A stretch of 24,024 nt of DNA, taken from assembly GCA_900088475.1 (NCBI GenBank), contig FLMG01004137.1:154313-178336 (forward strand), written 5' to 3'. The position numbers and the translations under genes are program-made. Below the pieces are notes generated by a model. It was not told where the DNA came from, ran no database searches, and was given only the letters and a program-made list of their open reading frames with translations. Shown here piece by piece: positions 9,985-20,679 of the stretch (positions are counted from its first letter, which is position 1; each line of letters begins with the position of its first letter). The stretch is from Hyphochytrium catenoides. Its lineage: Eukaryota; Sar; Hyphochytriomycetes; Hyphochytriales; Hyphochytriaceae.

Positions 9985-12900
9985 ATGCCATCACAAGTTC
10001 AAAGGCATCACGAGAGACCATCTAAGATGCGTCAAGAGGTGTGGGACGCTGTACGCTCTGCGCGGAGCGATATGAAACCGTCAGAGGCTGCTTTTCTCGC
10101 CTGTCAGCTTTGTATCCTAGTGCAACCACCTCGTCCGAAGCCCTCGCACCAGAGTGATCAATTGACCTACACAGTCATTATGTATCGGCATCCTGCAGGC
10201 TTTCAGATGTATGTGCAAAAGCTAGAAAGCACCTGGGTGCGTGTAGGCTGCATCAATGGCCAGGACCAATTCCAAGGCCCTGCAGGGTTCTTTGGGAGTT
10301 TGGAGCAGGGGGACTATGTGCTGGCCATCAACGATGAGTCAGTCTTCAGCTTCTTGCCGTCGCTCCGGTTAAGTACTCTCGTCAAGAAGCTGACTGATGC
10401 TTCCCTCAACCCGATTAAGCTCACAATGTTGCGGGGGCGACTGCTAGATAAGGCCATCTCGGGTTCCGCCGCCGACGCTGCTGAAAGCATTGATGATGAG
10501 GCCCTTGCTAACCTTCCTCGATATGTGGTGAAAAGCCATTTAGCAGCGCAAAGACAGCTGACAATGCAGTCTTCCTACAGGCACTATGTATTGCCAGGTT
10601 TCGCTCGTCGACCTGGGATAAGACGTAACGGAGTCCTTTTCAATGAGGAGGAGGGATCACCGCGGCAGTGGTTCGCAGAAGTTATTGACCTCAACGGGAG
10701 CGTCCGAGCCCTGGGGCCTTTTTTGGAAGAGTTTGATGCCGCTGCGGCCTTCGATGCGTATATAATTAGGCGCTACGGGTCTGAAGCTTCGGACTTGGTA
10801 AATGGCATGCCGCCCAAGAATGGGTCTGTCAGCGAGCGCGAAGATGAAGAGAAGGCTGATGGAAGAGACCCTAACTTGAAAGAAGGTAGCGTTCTGCATG
10901 CGTCCTTGCTTATATTAGCTTATCTCCGAGGCCAATCTAGTTAACTTGCAGGCACTTCTACTTCACCCCAAGGTGCCACTCCTATCCCGGTTCACGCTAT
11001 TCCGGACTCAGACACTCCTGGCCCCTCAGAAGGAAAGGAGAAAGAACCCTTTCCCGTTGTAAATGTTGAAGAAGAAAGTGAAGGTCGAGAAGATGGTGCT
11101 GAAATTGCAGTCACTACAAAGCGCAACGTAAAGGAGGCTAGGAAATTGAATAGGGAGGAAAATGCGCATAGAAGCACAGGGGAAAAGAAGTTAGAGGTGT
11201 CAGGAAAGGGCACTCTCGTTAAAGTTGGCGAGGGAGGAGAGGAGACGGCCAAGGAAGGGAGGCAGCCCAAAAGCTCACCTGAAGTGGACCTCTTTCAGGA
11301 CGTGACGGATCTGCAGGACCAAGTAGATTGGGAGGCTGATAGTGAGGGGAACAACAATGACGACGAAGACTTTGAAGGTGATTCTGAGGGAAGCAAGGAA
11401 TATTCGGACGATAGCGAAGAGGGATGGGAAGACGACAGTGAAGTTGACGAATATGTCCAGCTTCCTGCTTTCTCACAAAGAATGAAAGAGCAACTTCGAG
11501 CTCAAATACTTGCATTCAAGTACCTAGAAAAAGAGGCTACGGTTCCCCCCAAGGCCCTTTTAGCGGCTCTAGCGGGACCCTCAGATCAACCTCCTGGAAC
11601 CGCAGATGGAGAGGCAGCAGAAGGCCAAATAGTGGAAAGCACTCAGCCTGTGTTACACAGTCAGCCTACCTTCGGCTCAAAAACAGGACAACAGCCCAAA
11701 TCTAGGGCAGGCCCCAGTCATTTCAAGCCTAGACGGGTAAATCGCTTGGATGAATGGAGGGAAAACGATGCGGAATGGACTCCGCAAATCAGAAGAAGCA
11801 AGAGGAGAAAGATAGGGTGGAAGAAGAAAGTGGAATCTAGTGACTCCTCAATTCCTTCGGACTGGCTTGAGACAGAGGACGAAAGCGGAGGTAAATCTTC
11901 ACGTAACGAAGGAAGCCGACAGCAAGGAGCAAGCTTGAAAAGGGCAAGAGGAAGATGGAGTGGCCAGCACACTACGTTTTCTAGAGTCCAGGGGATTCGG
12001 CGAAAGCGGCTCAGAAAGTCTGGAACCGAAGATGAAGATGAAGGTATGTCAACCGAGACCCAAAGTGATGCGGAAGTCCCCTCGCCGCACCAGGGTCAGG
12101 TGCTGATAGACAAGTTTCTGGGCGTTCGTCATATGGCAGAGGACAACAGCAAGTCCAATGGTCGAGGTGAGTCCCTCTTTCTCGGAGGTAATAGGTAGAA
12201 AAGAAGGTGATAGCATGAATGCAAGAGAGACGTATGAAGAGGGACATCTAACGTTCGGCTGTTATTCCACCAGAGGAATACGAGTACTTAGTGAAGTGGA
12301 GGAACAAGTCGTACCGTCACATTGAGTGGATTGATGAGGACACACTGCGGCGTCAACCTCGCCATACTCAGGTATGAAGAATACCCAGAACTCTTGAATG
12401 GCCTCACAGCTATCATCTGTCCTAACTAAAGCTTAGCTGCACTCTAGTAGATATTGTGCCCTACTACGGGCTTCTGAGGATTATCCATCACACTCCCTCC
12501 TTTGTTTCTTGACAGGATAATTCAGTTCCTAACCCTCCCTACTCTCACCCAGCGTATAAGAGATGCAGCATCTGAACAAACTTGACTTGCAGGCGCGAGC
12601 AAAGCGATACGTCAAGGCCAATCTCTCAATGTTGGATGAGAGTGACGTGGAGGCACGTCAGCTCTATAACCCTATGTATGTGGAAATCGACAGGATACTA
12701 GCTGAGCGAGAAGCGGAAGAGGAGGAGGATGAGGCGGTGGACCGAGAAGAAGAGGATGAGGTTTACATGGGAACTAAGCGGAAGAAGAGGCAGCCAAAGA
12801 TAAGAAGAGGACTGCAGTACCTGATCAAGTGGCGAGGTCTCTGCTACGGCGATATTACATGGGAATGGGAGGAAGAGGTGACAGACCCTACTAAACTGGA

Positions 12901-18900: not shown

Positions 18901-20679
18901 GTCCGCTATCAAGAAAGGTTCCAAATTCAAACGATTTGGCTCACTCGATAGTCCTGTCCCTGACTCATCCTCAGACGTTCCCAGAAATTTACCAAAGTAT
19001 GCCGGATCAGCTCCAGCCCTTAGCTCTCGAAGTCCAACCTCCTTTGGCCATGAAAACCCCAGCAAACGGCAGCCAAGTGGGAAGCAACCAACAGATGGCA
19101 ATGCCCTAAGTCGCATTCTATCATCTGACGAAGGGGCCGCTAGCGAGAAAGACTCGCCACAACCCCTAAGAGCTATAACCGAAGAGAAGCGAGGCTTAGA
19201 CACCCAACCTATTCAGCAGGAAAAGCCTAGAATGGCCTTGAACCCAATGGAAGGGGAATCAGTCCAGACACCTAGAAAGCCGGAAAGTGGGACCTTAACG
19301 GAAGACACGGCATCATCCCCCTCAGACACGCTAAATTCTCCGTCCCAGAAAGCCAAGCTACGTTCAAAGGCCTCGGACTCTCTTGCTCTTCCAGTGCGCA
19401 CGCCTTCTCGCAGCCCTGCCACAGGGAATCAGCTCGTCCATTCTCGACTTATCAGCCAAGAGCCAGTGGTCAGTACTTCGGGGTCGTTCCAGAGAGTTCC
19501 CTTTTCGCAGCGTCTTGACGATGCAGAAACGTGGAGCGATAACATTGATAATGGGTTGTCTGATGATGAAGGTGCTGGACATTTGAGCCTTAAGCGATAC
19601 AATCCGAATGTTATGCCAGCAACCGTCACCGACGTCGATGGTAAGTGCCATGTAGGAGTTGGCAGGAGGGAAGCTGAGAATATATAGGACCTAGGGGAGT
19701 AGACAACCATGAGAATAGGCTAAAAAGTTATAAGTAACGTCAGAGGACAAGGGCGAAGGGAAGGTGATGAACCGAGAAGCATGGGAGGCGAACCCAGAGG
19801 ACTGGGGCACAATTGGAGTACAATAGAATGCTGTTCAAGAAAACTGCCCTTACCCGGGGACCAGCACCTAACGTTCGTGTCGGTTTGTTGCAGGTGCTGA
19901 TGATATTTGGTGCTGTGTCTGCTATAGCGGCAAAGTTTACGAAGGTGATGACATCGTCATTTGTGAGGGCTGCGACGTCGGAGTCCATCAGGTGCCCCTA
20001 GAGTGTCATATTGAATATCGCCACCATCAAAATGCTAAACCGTTACGACAGGATTGTTACGGAGTGAAGGAGATTCCAGAAGGAGACAAGCCTTGGTTCT
20101 GTGATCTCTGTGCAGCCGGTATCCAAGAGTTCCCGGTACGTTGTTCAATACTCTGTCTAGAGGCTTCGCTGGTTTCTCGCACTGCTAGTTCCTTGGATTT
20201 GCCATTAAGTGTTCATCTGCAGCCATGCAGGATCTGCAGGAAGGTAGTATTCTCTGCTATGAAGCCAGTCAAGGAGGGCGGTTGGGCCCACGCGGCCTGT
20301 GGTATATGGAACCCTGAGGTCAGCTTCCAGGTCCCACAGAAGATGGATGTGGTCATTGATGTGCCACGGATATCAAGGGATAGAAACAACCTTATCTGCA
20401 TCTTTTGTCGCTCCAAGTATGGCTGCATACAGGTTAGTACAAGTCACAGGTATAATAATACGCTCTCTCTTTCTAATGCCCTGACCCCTGGTGGACACAC
20501 AGTGTGCAAGATGCCCTCGAGCTTTTCATACAATCTGTGCACTGAACTCTTCACGTGCCTTGCTTATAATCAACGAAAGAGACGAACTGGAGCCATTTTG
20601 TTTCCAGCATCAAGGACACGCGAAGCCTAAAAAGTTTGAAGAGGAAGACACTGGGCAGGGAAGGGAGCACGCCAGTTAG
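9985..20679 (+). CDS. CHD (CHD6-9-like) remodeler with PDZ-like, AP2-like and C-terminal PZP domains
   Basis: Exons: 9985-10885, 10952-12166, 12274-12371, 12593-12961, 13119-13251, 13467-13600, 13790-13915, 14228-14408, 14674-14795, 14876-14995, 15078-15335, 15423-15487, 15559-15772, 15882-16094, 16325-16535, 16606-16865, 16934-17038, 17378-19640, 19894-19991, 20052-20135, 20223-20432, 20503-20679. The sum is 7557 nt (2518 aa) and all phases fit. ATG 9985 is the first after an in-frame TGA. Domains: PDZ-like about 58-150 ([17 protein letters not shown]); AP2-like about 210-268 ([31 protein letters not shown]); acidic then basic linker; chromodomains about 672-735 ([18 protein letters not shown]) and 760-850 ([19 protein letters not shown]). 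The SNF2 motor has DEMGLGKT (Lys916), DEAQ 1024-1027, [32 protein letters not shown] and RCHRIGQ. CHD7-like post-motor segments follow ([22 protein letters not shown]). Exon 17378-19640 encodes a Ser/Pro-rich disordered linker. Residues about 2335-2500 form PHD, zinc knuckle and extended PHD with the expected Cys/His. Predicted nuclear ATP-dependent nucleosome remodeler. The family is certain; the N-terminus is less so. Confidence 0.93.

Follow-up and report, generated by a model that had tools for sequence, protein, structure and literature searches.

The window, the 24,024-nucleotide stretch of Hyphochytrium catenoides DNA analysed here, encodes a single chain that carries a PDZ domain, an AP2/ERF-like domain, a QLQ motif, two chromodomains, an SNF2 ATPase, a conserved C-terminal segment, a low-complexity linker and a C-terminal PHD–zinc knuckle–ePHD (PZP) module, in that order (Table 1). 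The protein is an ortholog, branching outside the sampled members, of a family described in oomycetes as 'Chromodomain-containing protein (B)'. We regard it as very probable that it is one CHD-type remodeler with its targeting parts placed on the motor chain. The protein adds a relative to a known family that has been little studied and does not represent a new kind of machine; what is new here is the outside-branching ortholog, the AP2/ERF-like domain and the identification of the tail as a PZP.

Domain order of the protein

An earlier note, made from the letters alone, had proposed that a CHD motor with a double chromodomain shares its chain with a PZP at the C terminus and with PDZ-like and AP2-like domains at the N terminus, and all of these parts are present. 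The Pfam matches along the chain are QLQ, two chromo stretches, SNF2 (7e-78), Helicase_C (9e-25), PHD_2, zf-HC5HC2H_2 and zf-HC5HC2H. Tandem chromodomains are thus followed by the two lobes of the motor, the layout of a CHD remodeler, and comparison of the motor with solved structures places CHD1 (7.7e-138) and CHD4 (2e-134) at the head of the list (best 60 of 103). One departure in the motor is DEAQ at residue 1024 (exon 8, 14228-14408), a position at which DEAH stands in the four family members inspected in full; this could be an assembly error.

Table 1. Positions of the coding region and its features in the window
Feature	Position	Strand	Evidence
Complete coding region from start to stop codon; 2492 aa in 22 exons	9985..20679	+	Exon model; family alignment (11 proteins)
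PDZ domain in exon 1, approximately residues 57-159	10153..10461	+	
AP2/ERF-like domain in exon 1, approximately residues 211-276	10615..10812	+	Family HMM; family profile; structure model
QLQ motif, residues 473-507, exon 2	11467..11571	+	Pfam 26.1 bits, cut-off 23.8; family HMM 1.8e-10
Chromodomain 1, exons 2-3, split by intron 12167-12273	12100..12371	+	Pfam; family alignment
Chromodomain 2, exon 4	12674..12913	+	Pfam Chromo 803-845; family alignment
Lobe 1 of the SNF2 ATPase (exons 5-11), with DEMGLGKT at residue 910 and DEAQ at 1024	13197..15200	+	
Helicase_C lobe, exons 11-14; HRIGQ at residue 1312	15282..15968	+	
Conserved C-terminal segment, opening with an 18-residue stretch; spans the exon 17/18 splice	16722..17500	+	Family alignment; paralog on contig C452, phmmer 5.7e-7
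Low-complexity linker, its frame open until exon 18 ends	17501..19640	+	Unalignable with the family's shorter linkers
PHD finger 1 of PZP, exons 19-20	19911..20111	+	Pfam; structure matches
60-nt in-frame intron inside PHD 1	19992..20051	+	Exon model; spliced copy matches JADE1 and family without insert
Zinc knuckle of PZP (C2366, C2369, H2387, C2390)	20226..20300	+	Structure matches; residue check
Extended PHD of PZP, exons 21-22	20301..20610	+	Pfam zf-HC5HC2H and zf-HC5HC2H_2; family alignment

A protein search with exon 1 scored 5650 candidates and returned none at E up to 0.001, and exon 1 folded on its own reached a pLDDT of 33, too low for the model to be of use. The PDZ domain is weak by sequence (family HMM) and has the PDZ fold, PDZ domains taking up all 50 structure matches listed; no AP2 domain appears among those 50. 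The AP2/ERF-like domain was recovered at an E value of 5.5e-10 by a family HMM built without the window sequence, its predicted model has the three strands and helix of the AP2/ERF layout, and the family profile matches the plant factors AtERF1 (9.8e-7) and WRI1 (3.8e-7). It differs from these plant AP2/ERF factors in its Pfam AP2 score: 6 of the 12 aligned rows reach the Pfam profile at E up to 10 (best 2e-5), and the single score shown, 17.9 bits, lies under the cut-off of 33.3. The fold may contact DNA, although the GVR motif, whose Arg is kept in the 11 other aligned rows, is without that Arg in the window protein. In a Pfam AP2 profile search of the same genome (42.5 Mb, 1105 contigs), in which 2 candidates were scored, the sole reported match was C800:338260-338403 (36.4 bits, cut-off 33.3); the window's AP2-like domain was not among the candidates.

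At the other end of the chain, the Pfam and domain searches detected the PZP that the earlier note had read there (PHD_2, zf-HC5HC2H_2 and zf-HC5HC2H). The last 203 residues match JADE1 at 3e-34 (query residues 16-186), and also JADE3, BRPF1, NTO1, AF10 and PHF14. A PHD finger, a C2HC knuckle and an extended PHD follow one another with their zinc ligands, and the cysteines and histidines, assigned by eye, correspond to those of JADE1, BRPF1 and AF10. JADE1, BRPF1 and AF10 are scaffold subunits and are not known to act as motors. A protein search with residues 2300-2480 scored 58 candidates and found none at E up to 0.001; this search is insensitive, because family proteins that contain a PZP sit in the same database.

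An ortholog of oomycete protein (B)

The motor (query residues 700-1640) was searched against proteins, with 8000 candidates scored and the best 120 of 6519 matches listed. Among these 120 are 34 whole or partial proteins with the same line-up (P0001-P0032, P0036 and P0059), and their source names correspond to 23 oomycete taxa, some rows being from the same species. The genera represented are Phytophthora, Nothophytophthora, Pythium, Lagenidium, Plasmopara, Bremia, Albugo, Aphanomyces, Thraustotheca, Achlya and Saprolegnia. Family HMMs found the AP2-like domain in all 34 members and the PDZ, QLQ and PZP in 33 each, some of these matches being partial. The exceptions are P0018, with no PDZ match, P0036, with no QLQ match, and P0030, labelled partial, with no PZP match; the PZP is matched only in part in several others (e.g. 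P0001, P0011, P0013, P0015 and P0017). Within the other 86 listed matches the top PZP-HMM score, 8.4e-7, belongs to P0116, a CHD protein with a bromodomain. Motor identity between the window protein and the six family members printed is 62-63%.

A domain list for this family was printed in Table 2 of Matari and Blair (2014, BMC Evol Biol 14:101; PMC4030286), where protein (B), with PITG_10083 as reference, is given as [PDZ, QLQ], two Chromo, SNF2 N-terminal, Helicase conserved C-terminal, PHD-finger and PHD-like (zf-HC5HC2H_2). The brackets in that table mark domains that are missing or not significant in some species (PMC4030286). Compared through this printed list, the window protein has the same domains in the same order (PMC4030286). 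The earlier note knew of no such combination; the 34 listed matches from 23 oomycete taxa and the 2014 table contradict it on this point and rule out a new domain combination (PMC4030286). Neither the AP2-like domain, found in both the family and the window protein, nor the word PZP occurs in the table (PMC4030286). Among the papers listed by partly capped literature searches, which were judged by titles and the openings of abstracts and lay mostly outside subscription journals, there was no mention of the AP2/ERF-like domain of the (B) family and no functional study of the family.

In a 38-row tree of the motor, into which 13 of the 34 listed members were entered, the window protein and these 13 form one clade at 100/99. 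The 13 join one another at 98/93 with the window protein outside them, and a 101-row tree agrees. The precise depth at which the window protein branches is uncertain, given the length of its branch (0.94). Besides this position, the window protein differs from the (B) family in its 22 exons, its linker of about 660 aa, longer than in the family proteins, and its DEAQ. The family members P0026 (ena) and P0028 (lgn) group together next to the oomycete rows in the tree (100/97) and perhaps come from unsampled relatives.

The trees also place the motor among the CHD subfamilies. CHD1 and CHD4, with one row each, separate at 100/100 from the other 36 rows, the window included, which puts the motor nearer to CHD6-9; it is not nested in the four metazoan CHD6-9 rows, and the remaining rows of the tree were picked by similarity to the window. 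While its motor is nearer to CHD6-9 sequence than to CHD1 or CHD4, the window protein differs from metazoan CHD6-9 in that BRK (PF07533) is not among the 12 Pfam families matched at E up to 1. CHD6-9 proteins are not known to carry a PZP.

A neighbouring clade (98/89) holds P0033, P0034 and P0040, in which neither PZP nor AP2 is matched at E up to 1. QLQ is matched in P0033 (9.6e-8) and P0040 (2.4e-4). Inspection by eye reveals PDZ-like sequence in each of the three, with an HMM match for P0034 of only 0.011. This distribution suggests that AP2 and PZP were gained on a PDZ-QLQ-CHD core, or else lost in the sister clade. That a CHD motor and a PZP are kept on one chain across the oomycetes and in a relative outside them makes the pairing look selected and not an annotation slip.

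Predicted action of the remodeler and alternative readings

We infer a working model from the homologous parts. The SNF2 motor would slide or space nucleosomes with ATP, gated by the double chromodomain, which may itself read methyl-lysine or DNA. The first PHD of the PZP would hold the N-terminal H3 tail, probably of H3 unmodified at K4, if it acts as does the BRPF1 PZP, which binds the unmodified H3 tail and DNA (PMC4705663). Many of the basic DNA-contact residues of the BRPF1 PZP are missing in JADE1, AF10 and PHF14 (PMC4705663), so DNA contact by the knuckle and second PHD of the JADE1-like PZP found here is doubtful. The length of the linker would give the PZP access to a more distant tail, and the AP2-like domain would give a DNA or protein contact.

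PDZ and QLQ generally serve as protein docks; here the PDZ would bind the tail of a partner protein and the QLQ another protein. Targeting parts that elsewhere belong to partner subunits would thereby sit on the motor chain itself. The earlier suggestion that one protein reads unmodified H3 and methylated histones alongside sliding nucleosomes is plausible. A CHD-PZP chain offers a natural test of whether H3-tail reading controls a CHD motor in cis. A bolder reading, which we consider unlikely, is that a stramenopile lineage built a self-addressing remodeler, with a DNA-contacting AP2/ERF-like domain, a partner-binding PDZ, chromodomains that read methyl-lysine and a JADE-like H3 reader on its motor, in which H3-tail state and DNA sequence would switch the same ATPase, AP2 and PZP having been added to the older PDZ-QLQ-chromo-SNF2 core seen in the sister proteins.

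Potentially, the PZP and the N-terminal domains could instead serve mainly to recruit acetyltransferase or other complexes and not to steer the motor. BRPF1 and NTO1, both matched by the PZP, are subunits of acetyltransferase complexes (PMC4705663; structure chain names), which speaks for recruitment, but we find it improbable as the main role. Motor activity is not certain, given the long branch (0.94) and the DEAQ in place of DEAH. The same two features could indicate a decayed or inactive protein, either a scaffold only or a pseudogene in the making; this is highly unlikely, as a 14-residue sequence and the HRIGQ are intact, the PZP cysteines and histidines are retained and the frame is unbroken. 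One CHD-type remodeler with targeting parts on its motor chain is the reading that we prefer.

Gene structure, paralogs and neighbouring genes

The rebuilt exon model agrees with the phase-consistent, 22-exon gene that the earlier note had placed at 9985-20679, both in exon number and at both ends. All 21 introns are GT-AG, with consistent phases in a single frame, and no frame break was found across the 22 exons. The weakest splice site is the exon 15 acceptor at 16325. An alignment of the window protein with 11 members of the family, each of which holds motor and PZP on a single chain, runs through there. This alignment bears out the exon 14/15 and exon 17/18 joins, and family homology picks up again directly behind the exon 18/19 join. 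Because the linker is unalignable, that last join rests on the GT-AG signals, the frame and the presence of both halves in family proteins. A small self-trained gene finder recovered 7, 6 and 4 of the 22 exons exactly at three settings, two of which also fused the gene with its neighbours; it is unreliable because so little training sequence was available, and a gene finder with window-trained statistics was used only for reading other contigs.

It is scarcely credible that two adjoining genes are present here, with the CHD gene stopping within or ahead of exon 18 and the PZP encoded by a gene of its own. Exon 18 is indeed long and of low complexity, its frame would stay open as far as a stop at 19687 were the 19641 donor not used, and, the linker not being conserved, the exon 18/19 join itself is not spanned by any alignment. 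Against this, motor and PZP share one chain in the family proteins, homology runs on from exon 17 into exon 18 (in the family and in the C452 paralog), the open stretch that holds the PHD, from 19872, contains no ATG in frame with it, and of the five ATGs in 19641-19893 not one leads into the PHD unspliced.

Within the single gene, the 60-nt intron in PHD 1 has a length that is a multiple of three, contains no in-frame stop and lies between His and Cys zinc ligands. Its retention would add 20 aa to PHD 1 and could switch the reader off.

The genome encodes a second CHD on contig C452 (minus strand, about 12000-1900), 46% identical to the window protein over 651 aa. Its open frames include a bromodomain, a PHD, a chromodomain, a PDZ (27.1 bits against a cut-off of 23.2), PHDs of the NSD type, a finger of the ePHD type and a final PHD, and in the 38-row tree it joins five oomycete-type (D) rows at 100/99. 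The 2014 table lists protein (D), PITG_03401, as [Chromo], Bromodomain, PHD, Chromo, [PDZ], SNF2, helicase C, PHD, [PHD], PHD-like and PHD (PMC4030286). Like the window protein, protein (D) and the C452 paralog combine a CHD motor with a PDZ and C-terminal PHD and ePHD-type fingers; they differ from it in the bromodomain-PHD between the chromodomains, the PDZ adjoining the motor and the NSD-type PHDs. A further double-chromo CHD lies on contig C1033, and only possibly is it the counterpart of oomycete protein (C); its reading includes a stretch of cysteines that resembles a PHD, but Pfam reported no PHD in it. One search for chlorophyll-binding proteins gave no match, which makes a plastid-bearing alga an unlikely source.

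Elsewhere in the window, an open frame on the minus strand at 1698-4247 encodes an S41-family peptidase with a PDZ_4 match. On the plus strand, the start of a GH5 glycosyl hydrolase, which we take to be exo-1,3-beta-glucanase-like, occupies 23374-24024 and is cut by the end of the contig (C508), which coincides with the right end of the window.
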